Source: Cryptosporangium phraense (GTDB lineage Bacteria > Actinomycetota > Actinomycetes > Mycobacteriales > Cryptosporangiaceae). Taken from it: DNA of 64,000 nt. Shown here piece by piece: positions 1 to 59,978 of this stretch (the stretch's first letter is position 1; every line of letters starts with the position of its first letter). The notes beneath the pieces are model-generated. The model ran no database searches. It saw only the letters and a program-made list of their open reading frames with translations, and was not told where the DNA came from. The position numbers and the translations under genes are program-made. The stretch spans positions 310,001-374,000 of the forward strand of contig NZ_VIRS01000003.1 of the NCBI RefSeq assembly GCF_006912135.1. The letters are read 5' to 3'.

Positions 1-320
1 CCCTGCACGACCGCGTTGGCCAACGCGGTGGACAGCCGCCCACGCGGCTCGGGCTCGGGCGGGCTCCCTAGCGGCTTACGGGTGATCCGGATCCAGTTGC
101 CGCCGGGGTCGATCACGCTGAAGCCGCTCACGCCGTCGGCGTTCGCCCGCGCCCGCGGACGGGTCATCCTCGGAGTGCCCGACACCAGCACTTTGCCGTA
201 CGCGGCCCGCATCCCGTCCGCGAACGCCCGGTGCATCCCTTCGAGATCGGACGTCAGGACCAGGCACGACCCGTACGACGCGGCCGGGTCGAACCCGGCC
301 AGCTCGAAGAAGTCGTCGGG
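1..320 (-). pseudogene. C-terminal part of a VOC (glyoxalase/bleomycin-resistance) protein, 5' end missing, runs off left edge
   Basis: On the minus strand the frame reads a typical second lobe of a bleomycin-resistance-like VOC protein: 'GFDPAASYGSCLVLTSDLEG', then 'MRAAYGKVLVSGTPRMTRPR', then 'VIDPGGNWIRITR'. VOC proteins bind or modify small molecules with a paired beta-alpha-beta-beta-beta fold. The N-terminal lobe that should precede 'FFELAGFDP' is absent: upstream the frame runs into the 3' end of the next hydrolase gene with no start codon that fits. The gene therefore looks 5'-truncated. The true 3' end lies outside the window. Confidence 0.6.
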
Positions 321-342
321 CTGGCCGGACCGTTCGGACGAG

Positions 343-879: not shown

Positions 880-916
880 GCGGCCGACGCTACGCCCGCC
901 ACCTAGGGTGGCCCCC

Positions 917-1444: not shown

Positions 1445-1499
1445 GCCTTGCTGGGCGCGCAGCGCGGTGAGGCGGTCAGGGCCACTCTCGCCCCGGCTA

Positions 1500-1655
1500 T
1501 CGTCGAAGATCGTGGCCGCGAACAGCACCACCACCCACCTGCACCCCGCGTACGTCCACGGGCGCCACCTCGACGCGCTCGCGGCCAACCCGATGGCCCG
1601 GGCGCGCTCCCGGTCCGCCGAGGCGCTCGCCCACCTGGCCACGGTCGCGGTATGA
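1500..1655 (+). pseudogene. Possible 3' end of an unidentified gene upstream of the GH76 gene
   Basis: A plus-strand frame reads 'IVAANSTTTHLHPAYVHGRH' and ends '...ALAHLATVAV' with a TGA that overlaps the next gene's ATG (ATGA), the usual sign of translational coupling. No credible start lies upstream, because the frame soon meets a minus-strand frame ending 'TALRAQQGLAASTDF' with its stop at 1421. The segment looks like two gene tails joined head to head near 1500-1510. The family is not recognised. Confidence 0.3.
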
Positions 1656-2614
1656 CCTGGCCCGAGCGCGCGGCCGCCGCGCACGCGGTGCTGCTGCACC
1701 GCTTCGGCCGCCGCGGCGGCCTCTTCCGGCTCTCCGACCCGCCGTTGCCCGGCGACCGGTGGCGCCTCGGCTACTGGTGGCAGGCCCAGGCTCTGGACGC
1801 TCTGGTGGACGCCCAGCAGCGCGCGCCGTCCGCGGCCGGGACGCATCGGATCCGGGCGTTCGTGGCCGCCCTGTACGCGGTGCGCGGCGGCCGTCTGGTC
1901 AACGACTACTACGACGACGTGGCCTGGATGGCGCTCGCGCTGTTACGCGCCGGCCACCCCCGCACGGCCCGTCGGCTGTGGCGGCACCTGCAGTCCGGCT
2001 GGAGCGACGTCCACGGCGGCGGTATCTGCTGGTCACGCGGGCAGCCGGACTACAAGAACGTGCCGGCCAACGGCCCGTGCGCGATCCTGGCCGCCCGGCT
2101 GTACCGCCACGACGGCGACCCGGCCGACCTCGACTGGGCCCGCCGGATCGTCGCCTGGATCGACGACACGCTGGTCGACCACCGCACCGGCCTGGTCGCC
2201 GACGGCATCGGCCGCCGGGGCGACGACCATATCGACGCCGACTGGCTGTTCACCTACACCCACGGCGTGGTGATCGGCGCCCACGACGAGCTGTTCGCGC
2301 TCACCGGCGACGCCCACCACGCCGAGCGGGCCGCGGCCACCGTCCGCGCGGTCGAGACGCACCTGGCCCCGGACGGGATCCTCCCCGACGAGGGGGACGG
2401 CGACGGGGCGATGTTCCGCGGAATCCTGGCCCGCTACCTCGCCCCGCGCGAACTGCCTCTGTTGCGACGTTCCGCGGAACAGACCTGGGCGCACCGGGAC
2501 ACCGAGGGCCGGTTCGGCCCGACCCTGGCCGCGCACCTGTCCGGGCTGTCCCTCTGTGAACAGCTGGCCCGGTTCTCCCAAAATTCACAGCCCCCTGGCG
2601 CCCACCGCCCGTAA
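1652..2614 (+). CDS. Glycoside hydrolase family 76-like protein (alpha-1,6-mannanase type)
   Basis: 320 residues. GH76 enzymes cut alpha-1,6-linked mannan in an (alpha/alpha)6 barrel with a paired aspartate. Family-like blocks are 'LVNDYYDDVAWMALALLRAG' (the D-D pair), 'GGGICWSRGQPDYKNVPANG', 'DWLFTYTHGVVIGAHDELFA' and 'GAMFRGILARYLAP'. There is no signal peptide, so it may act inside the cell or on imported oligosaccharide. The ATG at 1652 overlaps the stop of the upstream fragment. A downstream convergent partner is absent; the haloperoxidase-like gene follows in the same direction after 45 bp. Confidence 0.8.
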   Translation: MTWPERAAAAHAVLLHRFGRRGGLFRLSDPPLPGDRWRLGYWWQAQALDALVDAQQRAPSAAGTHRIRAFVAALYAVRGGRLVNDYYDDVAWMALALLRAGHPRTARRLWRHLQSGWSDVHGGGICWSRGQPDYKNVPANGPCAILAARLYRHDGDPADLDWARRIVAWIDDTLVDHRTGLVADGIGRRGDDHIDADWLFTYTHGVVIGAHDELFALTGDAHHAERAAATVRAVETHLAPDGILPDEGDGDGAMFRGILARYLAPRELPLLRRSAEQTWAHRDTEGRFGPTLAAHLSGLSLCEQLARFSQNSQPPGAHRP

Positions 2615-2659
2615 ACCCAGGTTACGGTCACGGAGGCTTTAACGATCCAGGAGGCACCA

Positions 2660-3484
2660 ATGGGCACAATCACCACCGACGACGGTACCGAGATCTTCTT
2701 CAAGGACTGGGGCACCGGGCAGCCGATCGTCTTCAGCCACGGCTGGCCGCTGTCGTCCGACGACTGGGACGCCCAGCTCATGTTCTTCCTGTCGCACGGC
2801 TACCGGGTCATCGCCCACGACCGGCGCGGCCACGGACGCTCGACGCAGACCAGCGACGGCCACGACATGGACCACTACGCCGACGACCTGGCCGCGCTGA
2901 CCGCGCACCTCGAGCTGCGCGACGCGATCCACGTCGGGCACTCGACCGGCGGCGGCGAGGTCGTCCACTACATCGCCCGGCACGGTGAGGAGCGGGTCGC
3001 GCGGGCGGTGCTGATCAGCGCGGTACCGCCGATCATGGTGCAGACCGAGTCGAACCCGGGCGGCCTGCCCAAGAGCGTGTTCGACGACATCCAGACCCAG
3101 GTCGCCACCCGGCGCTCGCAGTTCTACCGCGACCTCCCGTCGACCGCGTTCTACGGCTTCAACCGTGAGGGCGTGGAGCCGATCGAGGCCGTCATCCAGA
3201 ACTGGTGGCGCCAGGGCATGATGGGCGGCGCGAAGGCCCACTACGACGGCGTCGTCGCGTTCTCGCAGACCGACTTCACCGAGGACCTGAAGAAGATCAC
3301 GGTGCCCGCGCTGGTCATGCACGGCGACGACGACCAGGTCGTGCCGTACGCCGACTCGGGCCCGCTCTCGGCCGAGCTCCTGCAGAACGGCACGCTCAAG
3401 ACCTACGCGGGCTTCCCGCACGGCATGCCGACCACCCAGGCCGAGACGATCAACGCGGACCTGCTGGAGTGGCTCCAGTCCTAG
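2660..3484 (+). CDS. Cofactor-free haloperoxidase/perhydrolase-type alpha/beta hydrolase
   Basis: 274 residues, the normal size for the non-haem chloroperoxidase family. These serine hydrolases act as esterases and can form peracids. The triad is visible: Ser95 in 'VGHSTGGGE', Asp225 in 'MHGDDDQVVP', His254 in 'GFPHGMP'. The N terminus 'MGTITTDDGTEIFFKDWG' is typical. A strong ribosome site ('aggaggcacca') precedes ATG. No signal peptide, so cytosolic. Its 3' end overlaps the convergent peroxiredoxin-like fragment by 35 bp. Confidence 0.88.
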   Translation: MGTITTDDGTEIFFKDWGTGQPIVFSHGWPLSSDDWDAQLMFFLSHGYRVIAHDRRGHGRSTQTSDGHDMDHYADDLAALTAHLELRDAIHVGHSTGGGEVVHYIARHGEERVARAVLISAVPPIMVQTESNPGGLPKSVFDDIQTQVATRRSQFYRDLPSTAFYGFNREGVEPIEAVIQNWWRQGMMGGAKAHYDGVVAFSQTDFTEDLKKITVPALVMHGDDDQVVPYADSGPLSAELLQNGTLKTYAGFPHGMPTTQAETINADLLEWLQS

Positions 3485-3926
3485 CCTGGGCCAGGATCTC
3501 GTCGACGCTCCACTGGTCGTAGGCGTGCTCGCCGTGCTTCTCGGCGACGACCGTGCCGTCGGGCGCGATGAGGAAATCCGCGGGTAGACCCAGACGCCCG
3601 CCGGGCTGTGAGCGGCTCGGCGGGCGTTCGCGATCCCGCGCCACCGCGATCGCGCTGCGGAACACCGCGAGCGCGATCACCGGCCACACCCGCGAGTTCA
3701 GCAGCGCGCCCCGGCCGGATTCGACCCCGAACTCCCGGTACAGCCGCTTGCCCGGGTCGGCCACGACCGCGAACGGCAGGTCCGCGGCGTGCTCGCGCAG
3801 CTCGTCGGCCGGCGAGTGGAAGACCACGACTTCTTCGACGCCTCCGGCGACCAGCTCGCCGTGCCGCTGGACGACCGTCCGCAAATGGAGATTGCAGACG
3901 GGGCAGCCGGCGAACCGGCGGAACTG
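3450..3926 (-). pseudogene. Peroxiredoxin-like (AhpC/TSA fold) gene, 5' end missing
   Basis: The minus-strand frame gives most of a thioredoxin-fold peroxiredoxin-like protein: 'QFRRFAGCPVCNLHLRTVV' with the CxxC pair, 'VVVFHSPADELREHAADLPF', and 'RLGLPADFLIAPDGTVVAEK'. Family members have about 45 more residues before 'QFRRFAGCPVC', including the first strand and helix. Here homology stops at codon Q (about 3926) and is followed directly by the coding start of the oppositely oriented TetR gene. Promoter and start of this gene are therefore missing. If expressed at all it would need a start inside the TetR gene. Confidence 0.65.
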
Positions 3927-4538
3927 TCGCTCACCACCGACCAGCTCGCTGCCGCCGCGCTCGCGGTCGTCGATCGGAGCGGGCTGGCGGGGCTGTCGAT
4001 GCGCACGGTCGGGGGCGAGCTCGGGATGAGCACGATGGGGCTGTACCGGTACGTCGCCGACCGGGACGAGCTCGAGCGGCTCGTCGTCGACCGCGTGTTC
4101 GACGCGGTCGACGTCCGACCTCCGGCCGAGGGACCGTGGGAGCGCCAGGTCGAAGACCTGGTCGGGCGGGTGCGGAACGCGTTCGCCGAACATCCGGCGG
4201 TGGTCGCGCTGACGCTGGTCCACCGGCACCGCTCCCCGGGCGCGCTGCGCTGGGCCGAGACGCTGCTGGCGGTCCTGAGCGACGCCGGATTCACCGACCG
4301 GGAGCGGCTGATCGCGCTGCGGGCGCTGTTCAGCTACCTGGTCGGCGCGCTGCAGCTCGAACACCTCGGGCCGCTCGCCGGCGCCGGCACCCGTGAGCTG
4401 GCCGGTCTGCCGCCGGACGAGTTCCCGCACACCACGGCCAACGCCCGCTACGCACAGGGCGTCACCGCGGACGAGGAGTTCACCGAGGGCCTCCGTATGC
4501 TCCTGCGGGGTTTGTCACCGACCCCGAGGGACCCATGA
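3885..4538 (+). CDS. TetR-family regulator with C-terminal TetR_C domain, probably 5'-altered
   Basis: 217 residues from ATG 3885. The HTH is clear: 'LTTDQLAAAALAVVDRSGLA', 'LSMRTVGGELGMSTMGLYRY', 'VADRDELERLVVDRVF'. The C-terminal half is a TetR_C-type ligand domain ending near 'GLRMLLRGLSPTPRDP'. The first 14 or so residues ('MEIADGAAGEP...') are not TetR-like: they are antisense of the peroxiredoxin fragment, and no ribosome site precedes the ATG. The natural start and the shared divergent promoter seem to have been lost. The stop overlaps the next start (ATGA), so it was coupled to the DUF1345 gene. Confidence 0.7.
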   Translation: MEIADGAAGEPAELSLTTDQLAAAALAVVDRSGLAGLSMRTVGGELGMSTMGLYRYVADRDELERLVVDRVFDAVDVRPPAEGPWERQVEDLVGRVRNAFAEHPAVVALTLVHRHRSPGALRWAETLLAVLSDAGFTDRERLIALRALFSYLVGALQLEHLGPLAGAGTRELAGLPPDEFPHTTANARYAQGVTADEEFTEGLRMLLRGLSPTPRDP

Positions 4539-5025
4539 CCAGCAAGGCGACGTTCTTCCTCTCGCGCACGATCGAGACGGCGACGACCACACGATCTGGC
4601 TCAGCCGCGGCCTCGGCGGCCGCACCGGCCTGGCCTTCACGATCTTCACCAGCATCGTCGGCATTGGGGCCGGGTTCCAGATCGTGCTGAGCACCAACGC
4701 CGACTCGAAACTGCTGGCCGAGGTCGTCGGGTTGCCCTGCGTGCTGCTGGCCTGGGGGATCCTGCACTTCGGCTACGCCGAGCGCTACGCCAAGACCTTC
4801 TACGCCGCCGATCCGGACGACCCGCCACTGGCGTTCCCGAACATCGACAAGCCGACGTACGTCGAGTTCGCGTACTTCTCGTTCACGCTCGGCACGACGT
4901 TCTCGGTGTCGGACGTCGAGACCCGGACCAGCGAGATCCGGCTGCAGGTCTTGTCGCACAGCATCCTGTCGTTCCTCTACAACACCGCGACGATCGGCAT
5001 CGCGGTCAGCGTCCTGACCAGCTGA
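4535..5025 (+). pseudogene. DUF1345 membrane protein gene with internal deletion and frameshift
   Basis: A good start ('gaggg' then ATG at 4535, overlapping the TetR stop) opens 'MTSKATFFLSRTIET', but within about 15 codons the family sequence continues in another frame: 'DDHTIWLSRGLGG', then 'YVEFAYFSFTLGTTFSVSDV' and 'LQVLSHSILSFLYNTATIGI'. These are the conserved late membrane segments of DUF1345 proteins, normally about 210-230 residues. Roughly the first two or three membrane helices are missing. The reading is a deletion that also shifted the frame near 4570-4590. Confidence 0.6.
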
Positions 5026-5060
5026 CGACAACCGGGCCCGGTGCGGGACGGGAGCGCGGG

Positions 5061-5087
5061 GCCGGGGTCGCTGCAGACGACCCCGGC
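5061..5087. terminator. Hairpin terminator
   Basis: A perfect 10-bp inverted repeat (GCCGGGGTCG / CGACCCCGGC) with a 7-nt loop lies 36 bp after the DUF1345 stop. There is no U-tract, as usual for high-GC actinomycetes. It probably ends the TetR-DUF1345 transcript. Confidence 0.55.
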
Positions 5088-5105
5088 GCAACCGACTAGT
5101 GGGGC

Positions 5106-5396
5106 ATGACCCAGGTATCCAGCATCACGACGGCGGCGGCGCCGCAGGCGGTAGCGGCGCCGTTGGCGTCGCTCGCCGACAAGCCGTTCGCCTACGTGCT
5201 GCGCGGCCTGGTCGAGGCCCAGCTGCCCCGCCCGACGGCCGCGGCTGAGCGGCCGGAGCGGCCCGGGCCCGTCGTCGACTCCGGCGCCCCGACGGCCGTC
5301 GTGACCAAGCACGGGCCGGTCACGCTGGGCGCGTTCGCCCTCTGGCACCGGTTCGCGAACGCGTCCCCGTTCGGCGAGGGCGCGTCAGCCGGCTGA
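5106..5396 (+). CDS. Small hypothetical protein
   Basis: 96 residues, alanine- and proline-rich, beginning 'MTQVSSITTAAAPQAVAAPL'. The middle is low complexity ('AERPERPGPVV'). The C terminus 'TLGAFALWHRFANASPFGEG' could form a short helix. No family recognised. It starts 18 bp after the hairpin at 5061-5087, so its own promoter would have to overlap that hairpin. It overlaps the 3' end of the LLM gene by 12 bp. Codon use fits coding DNA but evidence is modest. Confidence 0.45.
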   Translation: MTQVSSITTAAAPQAVAAPLASLADKPFAYVLRGLVEAQLPRPTAAAERPERPGPVVDSGAPTAVVTKHGPVTLGAFALWHRFANASPFGEGASAG

Positions 5397-6239
5397 CGGC
5401 GTGATGATCTCGTCGGCCACCCAGCGGGCGACGCCCTCGGGGTAGGGCGGGGACACGCTCAGCACCACGTGCCGGAAACCGGCGTCCAGCGCCGCACCGA
5501 TCGCGCGTCGCGTCGCGTCCGCCTGGTCGTAGGAGACGCCGAGGTGGATCGACCGGACGATCGACGCGGGGTCGCGGCCGATCTCGGCGCAGTAGGCGTC
5601 GAGCATCGCGCTGCGTTCGACGACGTCGGCGAGGTCACCACCGGGGATGTTCCACACGTCGGCGTGCTCGGCGACGACGCGCAGCGTCGCCTTCGCCCGG
5701 CCGCCGATCACGATCGGCGGGTGGGGACGCTGGACCGGCTGCGGCCGCTGGAACGCACCCTTCAGGTCGCCGGAGTCGAACGGCTCGGCCGAGGTCCAGA
5801 TCCGCTTGATCGCGGTCAGCGCCTCCGCGAGGTTCGCGGTCGCGGTGGCCGCGTCGTCGTACGGCAGGCCGAGGCCGTCGTACTCCCGGCGCGCGATCGG
5901 CATGCTCGGACGGGATCCGACGCCGATCCCGAAGTCCAGCCGCCCGTTCGAGACGACGTCGACGGTCGTGGCGATCTTGGCCAGCACCGCCGGGGGCCGG
6001 AACCGGTTGCTCGTGACGAGCAGGCCGAGCCGGAGCCGCTCGGTGCGGGCGGCGAGCGCCGAGAGCAGCGTCCAGCCCTCGAGGATCGGGCCGTCCGGAG
6101 GGCCGCCGATCGGCATGAAGTGGTCGAACAGCCAGGCGTGCTCGATCGCCGGCAGCGCGTCCGCCTCCTCCCAGACGCGGAGGATGTCGGCGTAGCCGAC
6201 CTGCATGGGTGCGGTCATGAGACCGATGCTGGGGTTCAC
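5385..6239 (-). CDS. LLM-class flavin/F420-dependent oxidoreductase
   Basis: 284 residues from a GTG start. Luciferase-like (beta/alpha)8 monooxygenase or F420-dependent reductase. Typical blocks: 'HAWLFDHFMPIGG', 'TERLRLGLLVTSNRFRPPA', 'VVSNGRLDFGIGVGSRPSM', 'HPPIVIGGRAKATLRVVAEH'. The GTG overlaps the TGA of the upstream aldo/keto reductase (GTGA), so the two redox enzymes are translationally coupled. Both should be controlled from the operator at 7275-7313. The substrate is unknown; F420 rather than FMN use is inferred from similar actinobacterial proteins. Confidence 0.87.
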   Translation of the reverse strand: MNPSIGLMTAPMQVGYADILRVWEEADALPAIEHAWLFDHFMPIGGPPDGPILEGWTLLSALAARTERLRLGLLVTSNRFRPPAVLAKIATTVDVVSNGRLDFGIGVGSRPSMPIARREYDGLGLPYDDAATATANLAEALTAIKRIWTSAEPFDSGDLKGAFQRPQPVQRPHPPIVIGGRAKATLRVVAEHADVWNIPGGDLADVVERSAMLDAYCAEIGRDPASIVRSIHLGVSYDQADATRRAIGAALDAGFRHVVLSVSPPYPEGVARWVADEIITPSAG

Positions 6240-7258
6240 GGGCGCCGCCGCAGGGCCGGGTCGAGGAGCGCGGGCGGGGTCGCGAACTTCTCGTCCGGGG
6301 CCAGGTCGAGGCCGGGGGCGACGATCGCGTCGATCGCGTCGAGGACGTCCGGGCCGAGCACCGTGTCGGCGGCCTCCAGCTGACCGCGCAGGTGCTCGAG
6401 CGTGCGCGGGCCGACGATCGCCGAGGTGACGCCGGGGTGCGCGGTGACGAACCCGAGCGCGAGCTGGACCATCGTGAGGCCGGCCTGCTCGGCGACCTTG
6501 GCGAGCTGCTCGACGGCGTCGAGGCGGCGCTGGTTGGCCGGGATGCTCGTGTCGAACCGCTGGGGCATCACGGAGGCGCGGTACGTGTCGGCGTTCTGGC
6601 CGGCGCGGATCGCGCCGGAGAGCCAGCCGGAGGCGAGCGGGCTCCAGACCAGCACGCCCATTCCGTACTCGCTCGTCACGGGGAGTACGTCGGCCTCGAT
6701 TCCGCGCTGCAGGATCGAGTAGCTGGGCTGTTCGGTGGCGTACTTCCGGAGGCCGTTCTCCGTGGCCGCGTGGTGGGCCTGGACGATGCGGTAGGCCGGG
6801 AACGTCGAGGACCCGAAGTAGCGGATCTTGCCCGCGCGCTGCAGGTCGGTGAGCGCCGAGAGGGTCTCCTCGTCGCTGGTCGTGGGGTCCCAGCGGTGGA
6901 TCTGGTAGAGGTCGACGTGGTCGGTGCCGAGCCGTTTCAGGCTGTCGTCGAGGGCGGTGTAGAGCCAGCGGCGGGAGCTGCCGCGGTGGTTGCGCTCGTC
7001 GCCCATCGGCTCGTTGGCCTTGGTGGCCAGCACGATGTCGTCGCGGCGGCCCTTGATGGCCCGGCCGACCATCTCCTCCGACTGGCCCTGGCTGTACATG
7101 TCCGCGGTGTCGATGAGGTTGATGCCGGCGTCGAGGGCGGCGTCGACGATCGCGGTGGCGTCCTCCTGGGTGGTGCGTCCGATCGCGCCGAAGTTCATCG
7201 TGCCCAGCACGAGCGTGCTGACCTGCGTCCCGGTCCGTCCCAGCGTGCGGTACTGCAT
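6236..7258 (-). CDS. Aldo/keto reductase
   Basis: 340 residues. NADPH-dependent carbonyl reductase of the (beta/alpha)8 AKR superfamily. It shows 'DTADMYSQGQSEE' (catalytic Asp/Tyr), 'DIVLATKAN' (Lys), 'VDLYQIHRWDP' (His), 'YATEQPSYSILQRGIE', 'VLVWSPLASGWLSG' and 'TSAIVGPRTLEHL' for cofactor binding. The start is ATG 7258, chosen for the ribosome site 'aaggagtacggc'. It is the first gene of the AKR-LLM operon, divergent from the TetR gene and next to two matched palindromes. Confidence 0.9.
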   Translation of the reverse strand: MQYRTLGRTGTQVSTLVLGTMNFGAIGRTTQEDATAIVDAALDAGINLIDTADMYSQGQSEEMVGRAIKGRRDDIVLATKANEPMGDERNHRGSSRRWLYTALDDSLKRLGTDHVDLYQIHRWDPTTSDEETLSALTDLQRAGKIRYFGSSTFPAYRIVQAHHAATENGLRKYATEQPSYSILQRGIEADVLPVTSEYGMGVLVWSPLASGWLSGAIRAGQNADTYRASVMPQRFDTSIPANQRRLDAVEQLAKVAEQAGLTMVQLALGFVTAHPGVTSAIVGPRTLEHLRGQLEAADTVLGPDVLDAIDAIVAPGLDLAPDEKFATPPALLDPALRRRP

Positions 7259-7274
7259 GCCGTACTCCTTAAGT

Positions 7275-7313
7275 GGAACCTTGTTCCGCCTAACGTAGCG
7301 GAACATTGTTCCG
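7275..7313. promoter_or_regulatory. Two tandem palindromic TetR-type operators between divergent operons
   Basis: Site 1 is GGAAC-CTT-GTTCC (7275-7287). Site 2 is CGGAAC-ATT-GTTCCG (7299-7313). The centres are 25 bp apart. They fill the 75-bp gap between the AKR start (7258) and the TetR start (7334). The likely reader is the adjacent TetR protein, repressing both directions until its ligand appears. Confidence 0.8.
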
Positions 7314-7333
7314 GTTGCCAGGGGTAGGGCAGA

Positions 7334-7903
7334 ATGGCGGGCATGGCAGCACCGACGAGGCGGGCCGACGCCCAGCGCAACGCGAAGGCGCTGCTCGACG
7401 CGGCCGCGGCCGAGTTCGTCCGCTCGGGCGTCGAGGCGCCGGTGCGCGACATCGCCGCGCGGGCCGGCGTCGGAGTGGGCACGTTCTACCGGCACTTCCC
7501 GACGCGCGCCGACCTGATCGTCGCGGTCTACCGGCACCAGGTCGAGGAGTGCGTGGCGGCCGGCCCGGCGCTGCTCGCGAGCGAGTCGTCGCCGTTCGTG
7601 GCGCTCGAACGTTGGGTCGGGCTGTTCGTCGACTTCCTGGTCACCAAGCACGGGCTGGCCGCCGCGCTACGCTCGGACGACGCCCAGTTCGAGGCGCTGC
7701 ACACGTACTTCCTGGACCGGCTGGTGCCGGTGCTGACGGGACTGTTCGAGGCCGCGGTGTCGGCCGGGGAGGTCCGGGGGGACGTCGACCCGTTCGCGTT
7801 CATGTTCGGGGTCGGGAACCTGTGCGCGGGCGAGGGCATGGATCCCCGGTACGACGCCCGCCAGCTGGTCGGGCTGTTGATCACGGGCCTGCGCGTCCGA
7901 TGA
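7334..7903 (+). CDS. TetR-family repressor (SbtR-like C-terminal domain)
   Basis: 189 residues. HTH: 'RRADAQRNAKALLDAAAAEF', 'VRDIAARAGVGVGTFYRHFP', 'TRADLIVAVYRHQVEEC'. The ligand domain has the short form seen in SbtR-like regulators. Start chosen at ATG 7334 behind 'aggggtaggg'; ATG 7343 is an alternative. It is coupled to the FAD monooxygenase by an ATGA overlap. Placement beside the GGAAC-N3-GTTCC sites implies autoregulation and control of the divergent AKR-LLM pair. Confidence 0.9.
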   Translation: MAGMAAPTRRADAQRNAKALLDAAAAEFVRSGVEAPVRDIAARAGVGVGTFYRHFPTRADLIVAVYRHQVEECVAAGPALLASESSPFVALERWVGLFVDFLVTKHGLAAALRSDDAQFEALHTYFLDRLVPVLTGLFEAAVSAGEVRGDVDPFAFMFGVGNLCAGEGMDPRYDARQLVGLLITGLRVR

Positions 7904-8943
7904 GGGCGCTGGTCGTCGGGGCCGGCATCGGCGGATCGACGGCCGCGCTGGCGCTGTCCGCGGCCGGCTGGGACGTCACCGTGCACGAGGCGCACCCGAA
8001 GCTGGCCGGAAGCGGCCCCGGCGCGTTCCTGACGCTGGCGCCGAACGGGTTGCTCGCGCTGGAGCAGGTGGGCGCCGCCTCGGTCGCGCGATCGGTCGGG
8101 TTCGAACTGTCGACCCTGGCGCTGCTCGACGCCTCCGGATTCGAGGTCGCGGTGCGGCCGATGGGGGAGTTCCGGTGCCTGCTGTGGATCGAGTTGGTGG
8201 CCGCGTTACACCGGGAGGTGCGGCAGCGGGGTATTCCGGTGCTGCACGACCGGCGGGTGGAGTCGGTGTCCGGCCGGGAGGCCGATGTCGTGGTCGGCGC
8301 CGACGGGCTGTGGTCGACGCTGCGCCGGGCGATCGATCCGGCCCGCCCCCGCTACACCGGCCAGCGGGTGTTCTTCGGCTACACGCCCGGTGCGGTGTCG
8401 GTCGCCGGAGTCTCGGCCGCGCCGGGCCGGTTCACCATTATTCGCGGCTCGGCCTCGGTGTTCGGGTACACGGTCTCCCCGTCGGGGGTCGCCTACTGGT
8501 TCGCGCGGGTGACCGACGCCCTCGGATCCGACGAGTCGCCCGGCTACCTGCTCGACCGTCTGCGGCCCGACGCCACCCCGGCCGCCGGGCTCGCCGCCGC
8601 GTCCGGCGGCCGCATCCGCGTCACCGACGCCTACGACCTGCCGGGCGTCCGGCGGTGGCGCGCCGGTCGCCTACTGCTTCTGGGGGACGCCGCGCACGCG
8701 GCCGCCCCGGCGACCGGACAGGGCGCCTCGATGGCGATGGAGGACGCGGTGATCCTGGCCAAGGCGCTGCGCGATTCCGACGATGTGGACGCGGCGTTGG
8801 CGCTGTACGAGCGGGTGCGGCGACCGCGGGTGGAGGCGAACACCGAGGCGTCGGCGCGGTCGACCGCCGGTTCTGCTCCTGGCCCGGGGGTCGAGACCGA
8901 CATCGCGGCGCAGCTGGACTGGGGGCGCAGGCTAGGCGGGTAG
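7900..8943 (+). CDS. FAD-dependent monooxygenase/oxidoreductase
   Basis: 347 residues. Class A flavoprotein hydroxylase fold: N-terminal GxGxxG Rossmann motif in 'ALVVGAGIGGSTAALALSAA', then 'VVVGADGLWSTLRRAI' (the DG motif), then 'RLLLLGDAAHAAAPATGQGA' (the GD FAD-ribose motif) followed by 'SMAMEDAVILAKAL'. It uses FAD and NAD(P)H to hydroxylate an aromatic or polyketide-like substrate, not identifiable here. It overlaps the TetR stop by 4 bp, so it belongs to the TetR operon. Its last 12 bp overlap the convergent gene. Confidence 0.88.
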   Translation: MRALVVGAGIGGSTAALALSAAGWDVTVHEAHPKLAGSGPGAFLTLAPNGLLALEQVGAASVARSVGFELSTLALLDASGFEVAVRPMGEFRCLLWIELVAALHREVRQRGIPVLHDRRVESVSGREADVVVGADGLWSTLRRAIDPARPRYTGQRVFFGYTPGAVSVAGVSAAPGRFTIIRGSASVFGYTVSPSGVAYWFARVTDALGSDESPGYLLDRLRPDATPAAGLAAASGGRIRVTDAYDLPGVRRWRAGRLLLLGDAAHAAAPATGQGASMAMEDAVILAKALRDSDDVDAALALYERVRRPRVEANTEASARSTAGSAPGPGVETDIAAQLDWGRRLGG

Positions 8944-9435
8944 TTCGGTGAGCGCGCCGTCGTGGTCTCGTCTCCACTCGACGCCGGCTGCGTCCCGGAA
9001 CGTCAGGACGACCCGGCGCCGGTTGGTCGTCGCCGGGACCATCACCCGGATCTCGTTGTCGCCGGGCGCCGCGAATTCGCGGAATCGTCCCTGCGGACCG
9101 CCGGACGAGGCGACCTCGGTGAACCCGTCGTCGCTGCGAACCACGATCGCGACCAGGACCCGATAGACGGGAAGCGTGCTGTTGTTGCGGACCAGGACGC
9201 GGATCGTCGCCTGGTCGAGGCCTTCGCGGTCAGTGGCGTCGGGTATCCAGGCGGCGATCAGCCCGGCCTGAGCGCGCCGGGCGTCGTCGGCGGCCTGGCG
9301 GTCGCGCGTCCGCTCGGTGACGAGCAGCTTCCACGCGATCCACGCCGCGGTGCCGGCCGCCACCAGCGAGAGCAGCCCACCGACGGAGGAGATCCAGGTC
9401 GGCACGTCGCCGTAGTCGATCTGCGCGGTGGACAC
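8932..9435 (-). CDS. Hypothetical single-pass membrane protein
   Basis: 167 residues from a GTG start giving 'VSTAQIDYGDVPTWISSVGG'. One membrane helix ('LLSLVAAGTAAWIAWKLLV') follows a short outside N terminus, then a charged coiled stretch ('TERTRDRQAADDARRAQAG') and a beta-rich domain ('IRVLVRNNSTLPVYRVLVAI', 'VVLTFRDAAGVEWRRDHDG'). This architecture is common in actinobacteria with no known function. A longer upstream frame is rejected because it is antisense to the divergent gene, whose start lies 25 bp away. Confidence 0.7.
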   Translation of the reverse strand: MSTAQIDYGDVPTWISSVGGLLSLVAAGTAAWIAWKLLVTERTRDRQAADDARRAQAGLIAAWIPDATDREGLDQATIRVLVRNNSTLPVYRVLVAIVVRSDDGFTEVASSGGPQGRFREFAAPGDNEIRVMVPATTNRRRVVLTFRDAAGVEWRRDHDGALTELPA

Positions 9436-9460
9436 GAGGGTCGACAGTAACGTTCGGGCG

Positions 9461-9757
9461 GTGGGGGAACCAGAACGGACCGAAGACGGGCACTTCGTCG
9501 TCATCGAAGGACGGCGGTGGCGGGCCACCGACCCGGCCATTCCCGACGACGTCGCGGCCGAACTGCGGAAGGTGCTGATGGCGGCCCGGCGGGCCGTCGG
9601 AGTGGCGCTGCGGGCGGGGGAAGACCCGGCGCCGGCCCGGGCGCGGGTGCAGGCGGCCAAGGTCGCGCTGGGGGAGCGCGGAACCCCCTGGTGGGAGCAG
9701 ACCCTCGAGGAGCGCCGGGCCCGCTGGGAGCGGGGCCTCCCTCACCACGAGAGCTAG
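9461..9757 (+). CDS. Conserved small protein ('VIEGRRWRATDP' family)
   Basis: 98 residues from GTG 9461; an in-frame GTG at 9428 would overlap the divergent gene's start. The motif 'DGHFVVIEGRRWRATDPAIP', a helix 'LRKVLMAARRAVGVAL', and the tail 'VQAAKVALGERGTPWWEQ' recur in small actinobacterial proteins without assigned function. It is soluble, basic and all-helical after the first 25 residues. It lies divergent from the membrane protein gene and convergent with the P450. Confidence 0.75.
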   Translation: MGEPERTEDGHFVVIEGRRWRATDPAIPDDVAAELRKVLMAARRAVGVALRAGEDPAPARARVQAAKVALGERGTPWWEQTLEERRARWERGLPHHES

Positions 9758-9815
9758 CCGGGCGCCTGCGGCGCCAGCCGGGCCTAGCTAGCCGGGCGCT
9801 TACGGCGCTAGCCGG
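9752..9815. repeat. Tandem direct repeat of about 30 bp with hairpin potential
   Basis: Two copies (9752-9785 and 9786-9815) share the start 'agctagccgggcgc' and differ by a few bases. Each contains a short inverted repeat around GGCGC. The second copy covers the P450 stop. Lying between convergent genes, it may act as a bidirectional terminator that has been duplicated. Confidence 0.6.
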
Positions 9816-11025
9816 TGTGGACCGGGCGGGTGAGGAAGCCCTTCAGGCTCAGGCTGTCGCGGCGCTGCGCCTCCCCGGTGAGCCGCAGCTCCGGGAACCT
9901 GCGCAGCAGCGCCGGGAACGCGACCTGCGCCTCGAGCCGGGCCAGCGGCGCCCCCAGGCAGTAGTGGATCCCGCCGCCGAACGACAGCGGCGCGTTGTCG
10001 GCCCGATCCAGCCGCAGCTCCGACGGCGCTGCGAACCGGCGCGGGTCGTGGTTGCCCGCACCCAGATACGCGACCACCCGCTCACCCGCCCCGACCGCAA
10101 CCCCGGCCAGCTCCACCGGCTCGGCCGTGAGCCGGGCACTGATCTGCACCGGGCTGTCGAACCGCAGCAGCTCCTCGACCGCCGGCCGGGCCAGCTCCTC
10201 GGGCCGCGACGCCAGCGCCTCGGCCTGCTCGGGATGCGTCAGCAACGCGGTCAGACCGTTGGCCAGCAGGCCGGTCGTCGTCTCGAAGCCGGCCGCGAAC
10301 AGCAGCGCCGCGTTGGCCAGGATCTCGTCGTCGGTGAGGCGCTCGTCGTCGGTCTGGGCCTGGACGAGCGCCGACAGCAGGTCGTCGGCCGGGAACCGGC
10401 GGCGCTCGTCGGCCAGCTCGGCCAGGTAGTCCCGGATCGTCTCGGCGGCCGGATCGGCCGTCTCCAGCACCGACGGCGTGATCACCTCGAGCACCTGCGT
10501 CCAGTCCCGGACCAGCGTCCGGAACTGCGCCCGATCGTTCTCCGGCACGCCGAGCAGCTCGCCGATCACCCCCACCGGCAGCGGAAACGCGAACGACTCG
10601 ACGAAATCCACGTCGCCGCTCATCGCGTCCAGCAAATCGTCCACCATGGACTCGATCGCCGGACGGAGGGCCTGGACCCGGCGGGCGGTGAACGCGGAGC
10701 TGACCAACCGGCGGAGCCGGGTGTGGTCGGGCGGGTTGAGCAGCAGCATGCTGGTGAACATCTGCTGCAGCGCGGGATGGTCCTCCCAGTCGGGGAAGCC
10801 GAGCAGCGACAGCACCTCCGACGGCGGGTGCACGAACCGGCCGTCGCGGACCACCGTGGTGCACTCCGGGTAGCCGGTCACGACCAGCGCGCCGTCGTCG
10901 GCCCGGACGATCGGCGAGATCTCCCGGAGCCGGGCGTACCGAGGATACGGGTCCTGCCGACCCTCCATCCGGGTCAGCTCGTCCAGCAGACGGGACACTT
11001 CCGGGCTCTGCACGATCTCCGGCAC
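9808..11025 (-). CDS. Cytochrome P450
   Basis: 405 residues, the normal size of a soluble bacterial class I P450. I-helix 'AGFETTT' (245-251), ExxR in 'AVEELLRFDSPVQ' (Glu285/Arg288), haem loop 'FGGGIHYCLGAPLAR' with Cys356. The acid before Thr in the I helix (Glu248) replaces the more usual Asp. Start GTG 11025. No ferredoxin or reductase gene is adjacent, so redox partners come from elsewhere. It follows the GNAT-ABM gene in the same direction after 20 bp and may share its transcript. Confidence 0.93.
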   Translation of the reverse strand: MPEIVQSPEVSRLLDELTRMEGRQDPYPRYARLREISPIVRADDGALVVTGYPECTTVVRDGRFVHPPSEVLSLLGFPDWEDHPALQQMFTSMLLLNPPDHTRLRRLVSSAFTARRVQALRPAIESMVDDLLDAMSGDVDFVESFAFPLPVGVIGELLGVPENDRAQFRTLVRDWTQVLEVITPSVLETADPAAETIRDYLAELADERRRFPADDLLSALVQAQTDDERLTDDEILANAALLFAAGFETTTGLLANGLTALLTHPEQAEALASRPEELARPAVEELLRFDSPVQISARLTAEPVELAGVAVGAGERVVAYLGAGNHDPRRFAAPSELRLDRADNAPLSFGGGIHYCLGAPLARLEAQVAFPALLRRFPELRLTGEAQRRDSLSLKGFLTRPVHTG

Positions 11026-22952: not shown

Positions 22953-22977
22953 CTGCTGCCGCGCCGGGGGCCGGGGG

Positions 22978-23103
22978 CTGGGCCCGGGGCCGGGCCGGGG
23001 GCCGGGCCTGCTGCCGGGCCTGCTGCCGGGCCTGCTGCCGGGCCTGCTGCCGGGCCTGCTGCCGGGCCTGCTGCCGGGCCGGGGGCCGGGCCGGGGGCCG
23101 GGC
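22978..23103. repeat. 12-bp GC minisatellite
   Basis: Six perfect copies of 'gggcctgctgcc' occupy 23004-23075, flanked by 'gggccgggggcc' variants. It encodes GLLP-like repeats in one frame, but no gene contains it. It lies about 70 bp upstream of the MprF-like start. Confidence 0.9.
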
Positions 23104-23220
23104 CAGGTTGGCGTACCTGCCGGCGCCCGAGTGCGGGCCACCGCGAGCGCGGAGCGCGCCCTCGATGGGGCGGGTCCGGCTCGCGCCGATCTGGTGCCCG
23201 GCGCCGGTGGGCTGGGGTGG

Positions 23221-23450
23221 GCGTGTTGCGGGTGGTGTCTGGGTCGGTGGGCTGGGGTGGGCGTGCCGCGCGTGGTCGCCGGGCTGGTCGGCTCGAGCGG
23301 GCGTGCCGCGCGTGGTCGCCGGGCTGGTCGGCTCGAGCGGGCGTGCCGCGCGCGGTCTCCGGGCTGGCCGGCTCGAGCGGGCGTGCCGCGCGTGGTCGCC
23401 GGGCCGGCCGGCTCGAGCGGACGCGCCGCACGCGGTCCGGTCGGCTGGAG
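23221..23450. repeat. 40-bp tandem repeat
   Basis: Four good copies at 23261, 23301, 23341 and 23381 (unit begins 'gcgtgccgcgcgtggtcgcc'), with degenerate copies on both sides. Forty is not a multiple of three, so each copy changes reading frame. This argues against coding function. Confidence 0.9.
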
Positions 23451-23589
23451 CGTGCGTGCTGCACGCTGTCCGCGCGCCGTCCGCCACCTCGCCGGCGTTG
23501 CCGATCGGCACCTCAGAGGACCAGCCGCCACCGGCGCCGGTCCGGCCGATTCGGGACCGGCCTACCGACAATCCCGACGAGCGAGTCTT

Positions 23590-29399: not shown

Positions 29400-29500
29400 G
29401 GCGCGGGATGTTCGGTGCGGGGGCGGGGGCGGGTGCGGGTGCGGGTGCCGGCTTTGCCGGCGAGCGCCCTCGGCGCCGGTGGGGCCGGTGGGGCCGCTGA

Positions 29501-29790
29501 GGCCAGCGAGGTCGGCGGTGTGCCCGAGGCCGACGGGGCAGGAGGTGCTTGAGGTCGGCGGGGCCGGGGGCGGATGAGGCCAGCGAGGTCGGCGTGGCCC
29601 CTGAGGCCAGGGCGGCAGGGGATCCCGAGGCCGGCAGGGCCGGGGGTGCCTGAGACCAGCGAGGTCGGCGGGCGTCTGAGGCCGGTGGGACCGGGGTGCC
29701 CGAGGCCAGCGGGGCAGGAGTGCGCTGAGGCCGGCGGGGTAGAGGGCGCTGAGGCCAGCGAGGCAGCCGGGGGCGGCTGAAGCCGTTGGG
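29501..29790. repeat. Degenerate 24-27 bp minisatellite
   Basis: About twelve diverged units, each starting 'gaggccrgcgrgg' and ending in a G-rich stretch. Unit length drifts between 24 and 28 bp. Stop codons and variable length argue against coding. It follows the prs stop by about 100 bp. Confidence 0.75.
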
Positions 29791-30161
29791 ACAGACCGGT
29801 CCACTGGGGTCCGAGGGCTCAGCGGGACTGCTGAGGCCGGGACAGCTCGTGGAACAGCTGAGGCGATCGGGGTCGGCGAGGCTGTTGAGACAGTGGGGTT
29901 GGGTGGGGGCGCTGAGGCCGGTGGGGCGTAGGGCAGCGGGGTCGGTGGGGCAGCGGGTCGGCGGGGCCGCTGGGGCGGCGGGCAGGCCATCCGGCTTCAC
30001 GTTGTCCGCTCGGCCATTGGGCATCGGCCAGCGACCGCAACGCGGTGCGCAGCGCTGCGGGGAGCACCTCGGGCGCCGTCGCGGAGAACGCGGTCGGGCT
30101 GAAGCCACTGGTCGACGCGTTGCGCGCGTAGAGCCGACCGTCCGGCAGCATCGCGGCCAGC
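29791..30161 (-). other. Repeat-flanked region with a possible gene fragment
   Basis: Mostly continuing degenerate GC repeats. At 29980-30150 the minus strand reads a non-repetitive, protein-like segment: 'GLAAMLPDGRLYARNASTSG', 'FSPTAFSATAPEVLPAALRT', 'ALRSLADAQWPSG'. It is cut off on both sides by repeats. The family is not recognised; it may be the tail of a lost gene. Confidence 0.3.
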
Positions 30162-30280
30162 CCTCGGCCTCCGCGCGGCCTCGGCCTCCGCGCGGCCTCG
30201 GCCTCCGCGCGGCCTCGGCCTCCGCGCGGCCTCGGCCTCCACGCGGCCTCGGCCTCCGTATGGCCCTGGCCTCCGCGTGG
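30162..30280. repeat. 17-bp tandem repeat, seven copies
   Basis: Unit 'cctcggcctccgcgcgg' occurs seven times without gaps; the first four are identical and the last three carry one to three changes. It continues into degenerate GGCC-rich repeats to about 30540. Period 17 shifts frame each unit, so it is not a protein repeat. Confidence 0.92.
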
Positions 30281-30550
30281 CCCGGCCATCAGCCCTCGGC
30301 ATTCTGCCTGGGCCGGCTTCCATCCCTGGCCCTGGCCCCCGCCCGGCCCCGGCCCTTGGCCTCGGCCCGGCTTCCATCCTTGGCCGGCCGCCCCGGCCCC
30401 GGCCTTACCGCCGGCCCCGCGGCCCGACCCCGGCCCCGCGGCCCGGCCCTGCGGCCCGGCCCCCGGCCTCACCCCCGGCCCCCGCGGCCCGGCCCCCGGG
30501 CCCCGCAGCCCGGCCCCCGGCCCGGCCCCGGCGCGACTCCGGCCCCCGCG

Positions 30551-55990: not shown

Positions 55991-57016
55991 ATGGTGAGAC
56001 CGTTGAACGAACAGGTCGTCGTCGTGACCGGCGCGTCGACCGGAATCGGCCGCGCCGCGGCCGCGGCCCTGGCCGCGCGCGGCGCCCGGGTGGTGGTGGC
56101 GGCCCGCGGCGCGGACCGGCTCTCCACCTTGGTGGACGATATCCGGAGCGCCGGAGGCCGGGCCGTCGCCGTACCGACCGACGTGGCGGACGCGGACGCC
56201 GTGCGTGCGCTGGCCGACACCGCCGAACGCGAATTCGGACGGATCGACACCTGGGTGAACAACGCCGGGGTCGCGATCTGGGGGCGGATCGAGGACATCA
56301 CCGGCGAGGAGTTCGACCGCGTGATGCGGGTGAACTACCTGGGCTCGGTGCACGGAGTGCACGCGGCGCTGCCCGCGCTGCGCCGGGCCGGTGGCGGCGG
56401 GATCATCGGCGTCGCGTCGGTGGAGAGCATCCGCACGGTGCCGCTGCAGGCGCCGTACAGCGCGAGCAAGTTCGCGCTGCTGGCGTTCTACGACGCGTTG
56501 CGGGTCGAGTTGGCCCAGGACGGCGAGCCGATCTCGGTGACGACCGTGCTGCCGGCCGCGATCGACACCCCGCTCTACGACCACGGCCGGAGCAAGCTCG
56601 GGGCCTGGCCGAAGCCGCCGCCGCCGGTGTACGCGCCCGAGATCGTGGCCGACGCGATCGTCGCGGCCTGCGAACGGCCCCGGCGCGAGGTTCCGGTCGG
56701 CGACTCGGCGCTCGGGTTCTACGTCGCCCAGCGGGTGTCGCCGGCGCTCGCCGACGGGTTCATGGCCGTGCGCCGGCTCGCCCGGACGTCGCAGGAGTAC
56801 GAGCGGCCGGACAACGGAGTGGACAACCTCGACGGTCCGCTGAGCGAGCCCGGCGCGGTGCGCGGGACGTACCCGGGGCGGGTGCTGCAGCACAGCGCGC
56901 TGACCCGGCTGGCCGCGCGGGTGCCGCGGCCCGGGGAGCTGGTGACGTCGGTGGTGAGGGCGGTGCATGCCCGGCAGGTACGGTCGGCGGGTGGACGTAC
57001 GGCGGGGAGAGCCTGA
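55991..57016 (+). CDS. Short-chain dehydrogenase with C-terminal extension
   Basis: 341 residues. SDR core: 'VVVVTGASTGIGRAAAAALA', 'VPTDVADADAVRALADTAER', 'IDTWVNNAGVAIWGRIEDIT', Ser in 'IIGVASVESIRTVPLQ', Tyr/Lys in 'APYSASKFALLAFYDALRVE'. About 80 extra C-terminal residues ('RRLARTSQEYERPDNGVDNL') are typical of a membrane-associated SDR group in actinomycetes. The 3' end overlaps the GNAT start by 26 bp, so the next two genes are in the same operon. Confidence 0.92.
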   Translation: MVRPLNEQVVVVTGASTGIGRAAAAALAARGARVVVAARGADRLSTLVDDIRSAGGRAVAVPTDVADADAVRALADTAEREFGRIDTWVNNAGVAIWGRIEDITGEEFDRVMRVNYLGSVHGVHAALPALRRAGGGGIIGVASVESIRTVPLQAPYSASKFALLAFYDALRVELAQDGEPISVTTVLPAAIDTPLYDHGRSKLGAWPKPPPPVYAPEIVADAIVAACERPRREVPVGDSALGFYVAQRVSPALADGFMAVRRLARTSQEYERPDNGVDNLDGPLSEPGAVRGTYPGRVLQHSALTRLAARVPRPGELVTSVVRAVHARQVRSAGGRTAGRA

Positions 57017-57605
57017 GGATGCCGAGGCGCTGTATGCGCTGAGTGTGCGGGCTATTCGGGAGTCGGCGGCCGGGTTCTATTCGGCGGGGGAGCTGGAGGC
57101 TTGGGCCGGGCGCAGGTCGGTTTCTCAGCATCGGTTGCTGGTTCTGCACACGGTGACGTTGGTGGGGGTTGGCGGGGGCTGCGGGGGTGGCGGGGGCTTC
57201 GCCGCCGCGGGCGGGGGCTGCGGGGGTGGCGGGGGCTTCGCCGCCGCAGGCGGGGGATTCGCCGCCGCGGGCGGGGGCTGCGGGGGTGGCGGGGGCTTCG
57301 CCGCCGCAGGCGGGGGCCTCGCCGGGTTCGTGTCGGTGGCGTTGGAGCCGTGGGGGGCGCTCGAGCGGGGTGAGGTCGACCAGTTGTTCGTGGATCCGGC
57401 GTTCGGTGGGCGGGGCGTGGGAGCCGGGCTGCTCGCCGCGGTCGACGAGGTGGCGTCGGAGGCGGGGATCGACACGCTGGTGACGCACGCGTCGTGGCGG
57501 GCGGCGCCGGTGTTCGTCCGGTGCGGGTACGTGCGTGAGGCCGTCGAGAGCGTGGCGATCGATGGCGAGACGCTCACCCGGGTGCGGATGCGGCGCTCGC
57601 TTTGA
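56991..57605 (+). CDS. GNAT acetyltransferase with an inserted Gly/Ala-rich repeat
   Basis: 204 residues from GTG 56991. GNAT pieces: 'DVRRGEPEDAEALYALSVRA', 'EVDQLFVDPAFGGRGVGAGL' (acetyl-CoA loop), 'LVTHASWRAAPVFVRCGYVR'. Between strands 2 and 3, where most relatives have a tight turn, lies about 50 residues of low complexity: 'GGGCGGGGGFAAA' three times plus a partial copy, coded by a 39-bp tandem repeat. The frame is kept. Activity may survive because the insert is in a surface hairpin. The stop overlaps the sigma factor's TTG start (TTGA). Confidence 0.82.
   Translation: MDVRRGEPEDAEALYALSVRAIRESAAGFYSAGELEAWAGRRSVSQHRLLVLHTVTLVGVGGGCGGGGGFAAAGGGCGGGGGFAAAGGGFAAAGGGCGGGGGFAAAGGGLAGFVSVALEPWGALERGEVDQLFVDPAFGGRGVGAGLLAAVDEVASEAGIDTLVTHASWRAAPVFVRCGYVREAVESVAIDGETLTRVRMRRSL
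57168..57320. repeat. 39-bp in-frame minisatellite inside the GNAT gene
   Basis: Three copies of a 39-bp unit built from 'gcgggggct', 'gcgggggtg', 'gcgggggct', 'tcgccgccgcgg', plus one shortened unit and a tail. Length is a multiple of three, unlike the intergenic minisatellites at 23221 and 30162. Confidence 0.9.
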
Positions 57606-58513
57606 CACCGGAGGACTTCTCGCAGCTGGTCGCGCCGCTGCGCGGCGAACTGCACGCGCACTGCTATCGGATGCTGGGGTCCGTGCACGATGCCGACGAT
57701 GTGGTGCAGGAGACGTTGGTCCGGGCGTGGAAGGCGATCGAGCGGTTCGAGGATCGGGGGAGCGGGGTTCGGCCGTGGCTCTATCGGATCGCGACGAACC
57801 GGTGTTTGACGGTGCTTGGTGGGCGCGGTGTTTCGGAGTTCGTCGAGCCTTATCCGGGGCCGGAGGAGCTGGGGGCGGAGTCGTTGGGGGCAGAGTCGCT
57901 GGGGCCGGGGGCGCTGGGGGCGGAGGCGCCGGGGCCGGAGGCGCTGGTCGTGGGGCGGGAGCATTTGGAGCTGGCGTTCGTGACCGCGATCCAGGGTCTG
58001 CCCGGGCTGCAGCGGGCGGTGCTGTTGCTGCGGGAGGCTCAGGGGTTCTCGGCGGCCGAGGTGGCGGAGCTGTTGTCGACCAGTGTTCCGGCCGTGAACA
58101 GCGCGCTGCAGCGCGCCCGGCGTTCGGTTCCGCTGCCGGTGGCGGCGGATCCGGTCGATCCGGGGGTGTGGGAGTTGGCGCGGCGCTATGCGGCGGCCTG
58201 GGAGTCGGGGGATGTGGACGCGATCGTCGCGTTGTTCGCCGACGATGCACGGTATTCGATGCCGCCGGAGCCGGCGGTGTTCTCGGGGGTGGACGCGATC
58301 CGCGGGTTCTTGGTGGAGGGGCCGCTGGAGTATCGGTGGCGGTTCCGGGCGACGGTGGCGAATGGGCAGCCGGCTTTTGGGACGTATCTGTGGGAGGACG
58401 GTTGGCGGCCGGGGGGACTGGACGTACTGACGATGCGCGGGGGTCAAGTCACCGAGGTCGTCTCGTTCCTGACGGCGGATTTCGAGATTTTCGGCTTGCC
58501 GGCGGGGCTGTAG
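57602..58513 (+). CDS. ECF sigma factor with C-terminal SnoaL-like domain
   Basis: 303 residues from TTG 57602. Region 2: 'LVAPLRGELHAHCYRMLGSV', 'HDADDVVQETLVRAWKAIER'. Region 4: 'IQGLPGLQRAVLLLREAQGF', 'SAAEVAELLSTSVPAVNSAL'. A SnoaL/NTF2-like domain (about 200-303: 'YAAAWESGDVDAIVALFADD', 'YRWRFRATVANGQPAFGTYL') acts as a built-in regulator, as in SigJ/ECF41-like sigma factors. The linker between regions 2 and 4 is expanded by 'ELGAESLGAESLGPGALGAE'-type repeats. Coupled to the GNAT gene. Confidence 0.9.
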   Translation: MTPEDFSQLVAPLRGELHAHCYRMLGSVHDADDVVQETLVRAWKAIERFEDRGSGVRPWLYRIATNRCLTVLGGRGVSEFVEPYPGPEELGAESLGAESLGPGALGAEAPGPEALVVGREHLELAFVTAIQGLPGLQRAVLLLREAQGFSAAEVAELLSTSVPAVNSALQRARRSVPLPVAADPVDPGVWELARRYAAAWESGDVDAIVALFADDARYSMPPEPAVFSGVDAIRGFLVEGPLEYRWRFRATVANGQPAFGTYLWEDGWRPGGLDVLTMRGGQVTEVVSFLTADFEIFGLPAGL

Positions 58514-59978
58514 GGATTGGTGGGCGGAGCAACCGAGAAGGCCAGCCGAGCGCCCGAAGCAGCGAGTAACCGATTTTGAATCGGATTGCGCCGTGGTCGC
58601 CCGTTGTTCCTCCGCCCATGCTGTTCGGCTTGACCGCTTAGCGGACGCAACCTGAAGCCTGCAGTCGGAATCGTGCTCAAGCCCGAGAAGGGTTTATGGG
58701 GCAGTGGGTCGCCGAAGAGGCGATGGTGAGGCCTGGCGACCGTCGCCGAGAGCCTGCATGCAGCGAATGGGGCGAGGGAGCTGGCACCGTGGCCGGTCGG
58801 CATCACGAGGCGGTGGGCCGGACGGGCGGCGGGCAGCGGCAGCGCCGGTGCGCGAGCAGCGGCGACGGCGGCGGTCACGGGCGGCGGGCAGCCGCAACGG
58901 AGGGAAGTAGCAGCGGCAGCGGCGGTCGGGAGCGGCGCCAGCGGCGGGCGGGGGTCAGCGGCAGCGTCAGACGCGGAGGCAGCGCCAGCGTCGGGCGAAG
59001 GCCGCGGGCATTAGCGGGCGGAGGCCGCGGGCGGGGTCGCTGCGGAAGCCGGGGCAGTGGCGGCACGAGGCCGGGGCAGTGGCAGGGGCAGTGGCAGAGC
59101 GGAGGCCGGGGCAGTGGCAGGGCGGAGGGCGCGGGCAGTCGTGGTGCGGAGGCTGGGCTAGTGCAGGGCGGAGGCCGGGGCAGCGGCGGGCGGGCTATGG
59201 GTAGCGGCGCTTAAGAAGGCGGGCGGAGGAAGTGGCGGCGCGATCAAGGGGCGAGGCCTCGCGGTGGGCGGACATCGCAGTCGGCGGCCTTCGCGGCGGC
59301 GGCCAGGGCAGCGGCGAGCGAGTGGCGATGGCGGCGCGCAGTGGTGATAGGAGGAAGTCCGGGCGCCGAATTGGAGGCCCAACCCGAACGCAGGGCTAGC
59401 GGCCGCTCGTAAGCCACTCGCCGACCGGCCCATCCAAGAGCCGCGCGGCGATCGCCCATCTCGAGACGCAGCAACTGAGGTCTACACGAATGCCGAACGC
59501 CAGTCGCCCGCCGCCGCACCGCCGCGTCCTGCACCGCCGCCCCACCAGCGAGAGGCGGCGTCGCCGCGCTCCCCGTAGTCGCCGCGCTCCCTGCAATGGC
59601 CGGGCTTCACGTGATGGCCGGGCTTCGCGAGGGCGGCGATGAACGTTCGTCCACGGCCGCGCACCTCGCCGGCCGATGCATATTCCGCGACGCTCGCGAG
59701 AGCTCCCCGATGGCAGCGGCCGTAATGGTGTGCGCATTCTGTCGCCGCGAGGAGTGCTCTGCGGCGGTGGCGAGAGTCGTCAACTCTTGCCTCGGGCCGG
59801 CGCAACGGCAAATACGGTCAGCTGCCGCGTCGGGGCATCGACACTGCCCTCCTCGGCAGAGGTGGCGAGCATTCCGCACCGGCTCGGCGCATCGCCTGTG
59901 AGGCCGCGGCGGCCGGCGATGGACAGGCGCGGTCGAATCCGCGGCGTCGCAAGGTTCGCCGGCCCGAGCCTCACATCG
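58514..59978. other. 1.5-kb stretch without recognisable gene
   Basis: From 58790 to 59300 the DNA is built of degenerate GC units such as 'gcggaggccggggcagtggc' repeated with variation. Before and after it there is mixed sequence with many short frames, none with a family motif or good ribosome site. Long open frames on both strands reflect base composition. It may be decayed coding DNA or a repeat-rich spacer. Confidence 0.55.

Follow-up and report, generated by a model that had tools for sequence, protein, structure and literature searches.

Two kinds of described repeat come closest to the array reported here: coding satellites and the phase-variable intragenic repeats of pathogens. The former were defined in a survey as tandem repeats with units of 10–200 bp, of a length divisible by three, that encode an amino-acid repeat, and in most of the long-repeat prokaryotic satellites it describes, unit length is a multiple of three (PMC6749651). 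Among the latter, the examples given in the source, CAAT and CTCTT, act by switching frame through units whose length is not divisible by three (PMC3899988).

How does the present locus compare with these systems? The array lies in a GNAT acetyltransferase gene of Cryptosporangium phraense, within a 64,000-nucleotide stretch of DNA that we refer to as the window. Like the phase-variable repeats, it is a tandem repeat in a coding region, but both of its unit lengths (18 and 21 bp) are divisible by three, unlike those of the pathogen examples (PMC3899988). It should not act as an on/off switch, because every unit keeps the frame. The survey of prokaryotic coding satellites asked for at least four repeats (PMC6749651), whereas Tandem Repeats Finder (TRF) counts 2.3 copies of 60 bp in this array, which can also be read as three 39-bp units plus a partial unit. 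Repeats like it are common in the genes we sampled and nearly always keep frame; we therefore regard the array as mostly ordinary. Among the papers listed by a literature search, none was on this repeat case, judged by title.

An in-frame array in an acetyltransferase turn

The array (Table 1) is built from two units: A (GGC GGG GGC TGC GGG GGT), 18 bp long and encoding GGGCGG, and B (GGC GGG GGC TTC GCC GCC GCR), 21 bp long and encoding GGGFAAA, with GGA as the third codon in one copy. The initial annotation had located the array correctly and had described three 39-bp units and a partial one. This is right in content, the order being AB, AB, B, AB, so that the 21-bp partial unit comes after two of the 39-bp units and before the last. 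The best-scoring TRF row has a period of 60 bp, 96% matches, and a score of 258; with 96–97% matches at the 60- and 39-bp periods and units of 18, 21, 39, and 60 bp, the array is a coding minisatellite. The differences between copies (GCG/GCA and GGC/GGA) are synonymous only, and their pattern fits the duplication of a 60-bp block (B A B, B A B). Each A unit contributes one cysteine to the encoded insert.

The array is predicted to be coding: its unit lengths are divisible by three, it sits within a gene recognized as a GNAT by Pfam, with orthologous sequence flanking both sides, and its 138 bp equal 3 x 46. It inserts 46 residues, seen as a 45-residue gap in the alignment with relatives; the earlier estimate was of about 50 residues added with frame kept.

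Table 1. Coordinates of the array and neighboring features in the window
Feature	Position	Strand	Description and basis
GNAT acetyltransferase gene	56991..57605	+	GTG start, upstream ATG at 56967 possible; Pfam, orthologue alignment, Foldseek top match 2fiw
Four G5 runs at 5' edge of array	57164..57196	+	Sole window match to quadruplex-like pattern
Minisatellite A B A B B A B	57171..57308	+	138 bp = 46 residues (GGGCGG / GGGFAAA)
First 60-bp half, B A B	57189..57248	+	TRF period 60, 96% matches; unit table
Second 60-bp half, B A B	57249..57308	+	One synonymous base apart from first half (GGC to GGA); unit table
GGC GGG GGC CTC GCC (GGGLA), directly 3' of array	57309..57323	+	Aligns with ordinary turn of orthologues (DGAVA and similar)
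Sigma-70 family factor, SnoaL-like C-terminus	57602..58513	+	Pfam; 4-bp overlap with GNAT stop
Second in-frame array, 15-bp units, between sigma regions 2 and 4	57856..57947	+	

That the gene encodes a GNAT, as first annotated, is borne out by Pfam and by the alignment of orthologues. Three models score over their cut-offs (Acetyltransf_7, 3e-08; Acetyltransf_1, 1.3e-07; Acetyltransf_10, 1.5e-06). GNATs share an acetyl-CoA loop motif, R/Q-x-x-G-x-G/A; it is present here as GGRGVGAG, and its GGRG is invariant in all six aligned sequences. An AlphaFold2 model made from the six-sequence alignment has a mean pLDDT of 79.6 and a confident GNAT core, with pLDDT of at least 90 at 130 of 204 residues. 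In a Foldseek search with this model the best solved match was 2fiw (TM-score 0.85 by target length, E = 1.4e-11), consistent with a GNAT fold, and the same structure came first in a profile search (E = 9e-19, positions 3–158). The two proteins share the GNAT core, but the 46 extra residues of the window protein stand at what is a short turn in 2fiw and in the aligned orthologues. Alignment and model alike place the insert in the turn between strands 2 and 3, as had been proposed: in the model it is flanked by strands 55–60 and 110–116, and residues 65–107 fall below pLDDT 50. The insert is thus probably a floppy or disordered loop, although low pLDDT could equally come from the absence of homologues.

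Outside the array, the protein is 67–68% identical to its orthologues in three congeners. With dN of 0.26–0.28 and dS of 0.92–1.09 (NG86; dS near saturation), dN/dS against these congeners is 0.24–0.30, much like the 0.22–0.39 obtained for pairs of congeners; by these estimates the gene outside the array is under purifying selection. The stop codon is overlapped by the start of a sigma-70 family gene through TTGA at 57602–57605; in congener G001 the overlap is also 4 bp and reads GTGA. This sigma gene carries an in-frame array of its own, in a linker that is shorter in G001. In the fetched loci of the other two congeners, G002 and G003, no open reading frame (ORF) of at least 120 aa after the GNAT gene was recognized by eye as this sigma gene, and the neighbors appear to differ. 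Farther downstream, positions 58832–59193 hold a degenerate repeat region between called genes, with periods of 6 to 104.

The empty site and the origin of the array

Is the insert shared by related genomes? All four genus genomes compared, the window genome included, encode the GNAT gene, yet the insert is present in only one of the four species and absent from all three congeners (G001, G002, and G003). A short turn without the insert is also found in Modestobacter altitudinis, Geodermatophilus tzadiensis, and one more genome of the order (G145). Thus, none of the six other orthologues whose turns we aligned or read carries the insert, whereas an invariant insert shared by orthologues was the outcome that the initial annotation had named as counting against it. 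In a wider orthologue search at E <= 1e-15, 5 of 150 genomes matched within the order and 9 of 396 within the phylum. Leaving the window genome aside, the other eight matches in the phylum scored 62–74 bits, against 271 for the window, and, judged by span, left no room for a 46-residue insert (420–459 bases per 145–158 model positions). A Modestobacter metagenome-assembled genome that the alignment does not include has a match of 288 bases to query residues 3–143, which fits no insert.

Where did the units come from? An exact 15-mer of unit B, GGCGGGGGCTTCGCC, has three matches in the window genome, all within the array, and one match elsewhere in G001, with none in G002 or G003. Because it is absent from the rest of the genome, the array appears to have been born in place. 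The 15 bases directly 3' of the array equal the start of unit B at 14 positions, and since the GGGLA codons there line up with the turn that relatives ordinarily have, the units were probably seeded by the turn itself. Slippage or unequal recombination would have turned copies of these G-rich turn codons into the 18- and 21-bp units, after which a 60-bp block would have been duplicated. Ordinary purifying selection, acting on the acetyltransferase and perhaps on the overlapping sigma gene too, would then have eliminated versions that shifted the frame, and the in-frame product may have survived because the tip of the hairpin tolerates a long, flexible Gly/Ala loop. The array may well be recent; with congeners only 67–68% identical here, that dating leans mainly on the near-identity of the copies, which recombination could also maintain.

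Three candidate causes of repeat formation were also considered. Hairpin-driven slippage found no clear support in DNA folding, with z-scores of -0.86, 0.07, and -1.84; in the third case, 8 of 200 shuffles folded at least as well. Seeding by a G-quadruplex is suggestive only. We searched for four runs of at least four G with loops of 1–7, a pattern matched once in the 400-kb stretch holding the array and six times in the second 400-kb stretch of the window genome; across 50 simple 2-mer shuffles of the window, matches averaged 1.46, with a maximum of 5. The single motif is therefore no excess: the array itself supplies most of the G runs, the second stretch has six motifs, and the shuffles average more than one. 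Finally, the repeats cannot be put down to a loss of NucS mismatch repair, because a NucS_C match over the cut-off is present in all four genomes.

Frame-keeping in the sampled genomes

How general is frame-keeping among such repeats? We sampled 800 kb of the window genome and 400 kb from each of three congeners (2.0 Mb in all), calling arrays with TRF and genes with a simple, home-made codon-bias caller. TRF rows that overlapped a better-scoring row by at least 30% of their length were dropped, and periods below 9 bp were left out. At TRF scores of at least 80, periods divisible by three were found in 102 of 103 in-gene arrays but in only 24 of 51 intergenic ones (Fisher P = 6e-15). Neither count includes arrays at gene edges (13/17 divisible by three at this score), and the caller may report spurious genes within repeats or overlook genuine ones—it started this GNAT gene too late—so that intergenic arrays divisible by three may include missed genes. 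The rule is weaker at scores of at least 50, where 153 of 176 in-gene arrays of the window genome follow it (76/87 and 77/89). It agrees with the unit lengths reported in the survey of prokaryotic satellites (PMC6749651). Codon-shuffled controls contained 0 to 0.8 arrays of score at least 80 per 100 kb, depending on the stretch, and in these controls, one for each of the seven sampled stretches, no array of score at least 120 appeared.

Selection thus holds the frame here as it does in nearly every strong in-gene array of the sampled stretches. The earlier suggestion that selection keeps this array in frame stands as a statement about a general force; as a property specific to the GNAT locus it does not, since frame-keeping is a general filter against frameshifts. 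That suggestion had been drawn from a contrast with frame-breaking intergenic repeats nearby. Arrays of 17-bp (30162–30287) and 40-bp (23259–23437) period do exist outside called genes, but the contrast was selective, because neighboring called-intergenic arrays also have periods divisible by three (36 at 22980–23104, 54 at 30306–30404, and 33 at 30392–30546). Mechanically called ORFs of at least 100 aa run through both the 17- and 40-bp array sites. The dense minisatellite clusters at 22968–23472 and 29414–30546 contain periods of both kinds and lie mostly outside called genes.

Array density varied several-fold, both between species and between stretches of one genome. Per 100 kb, all arrays of score at least 80 numbered 10.5 and 11.8 in the two stretches of the window genome, 4.0 in G001, 16.1 and 2.5 in G002, and 3.2 and 6.1 in G003. 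When the in-gene arrays of the window genome were compared with the sampled congener DNA, two-sided matches were obtained for 9 of 53 arrays (in 5 genes), all of them in G001; in four of these five genes the G001 match was in one piece and 11 to 83 residues shorter than in the window genome.

Are arrays usually found inside folded domains? The first 400 kb hold 27 strong in-gene arrays, and we scanned with Pfam the ten proteins that carry 22 of them; the GNAT and sigma proteins were scanned separately. Five of the 22 lie between two Pfam domains (e.g., kinase/WD40-like, lipoyl/E3-binding, and PfkB/cytidylyltransferase-like), five lie outside the listed Pfam matches, two overlap a domain edge, and one is in a protein without a match. 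Two are inside a Pfam match (LysE and an NRPS condensation domain), and seven, in the NRPS, were left unplaced, as only the best stretch per family was available. By these placements, the GNAT array probably belongs to a minority that lie within a folded domain, though it is not the only one there. Its site inside a compact catalytic fold is the mildly unusual point about it. The NRPS (3,642 aa; L027, positions 26–10954) carries eight arrays with periods divisible by three; one has 8.7 copies of a 15-bp unit at 99% match, and another is built on a 198-bp unit.

Alternative explanations and significance

We consider it very probable that the array is a recent, locally born, and tolerated minisatellite that lies between strands 2 and 3, in the hairpin turn of a working GNAT, and was filtered for frame like the others. 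The initial annotation suggested that copy number may vary between strains, and one can imagine an adaptive insert that tunes the enzyme through substrate access, partner binding, or cysteine sensing. Its place within a catalytic fold, its intact frame, and the cysteine in every A unit speak for such a role, and the array may be unstable, because its copies are nearly identical. We nevertheless find it quite improbable, given that the loop is missing from the six other orthologues aligned or read at the turn, that frame-keeping is general in the samples, and that such arrays are common in the sampled stretches of the window genome. Could the frame instead be held mainly for the downstream sigma factor, since translation across the 4-bp overlap would be uncoupled if the GNAT gene lost its frame? 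The conservation of that overlap in G001 and the in-frame array of the sigma gene itself are in keeping with this; yet this sigma gene was not recognized by eye after the GNAT gene in the fetched loci of G002 or G003, and in-gene arrays keep frame almost without exception anyway, which makes this unlikely as the main reason.

The two remaining alternatives concern whether the array is what it seems. The genome is a draft of 87 contigs, and GC-rich repeats are prone to collapse or expansion. Even so, an assembly artefact is very unlikely: the differences among the B copies fit the 60-bp duplication, and the in-gene arrays of the samples keep frame, unlike random errors. The small palindrome in unit B, GGC-TTC-GCC, might suggest the in-frame insertion of a palindromic or mobile element dispersed in the genome, but the uniqueness of its 15-mer to the array within the genome leads us to reject such an origin, and the six other genome matches of the array are only 70–83% identical; we rate it as extremely improbable. 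Tolerance of a locally born array, rather than benefit from it, is our preferred reading of the insert.

What might such arrays mean for the lineage? A long shot is that a mutational process of this lineage continually makes G-rich minisatellites in genes, that the in-frame survivors push long, flexible loops into compact folds and so become a source of rapidly varying enzyme loops, and that the length of the GNAT loop tunes activity between strains. The locus alone opens no new question. It does provide a clean empty-site case, in which the turn of a catalytic fold has gained 46 residues in frame, and many further, independent cases in the surrounding genome could be used to measure how selection filters the growth of repeats.
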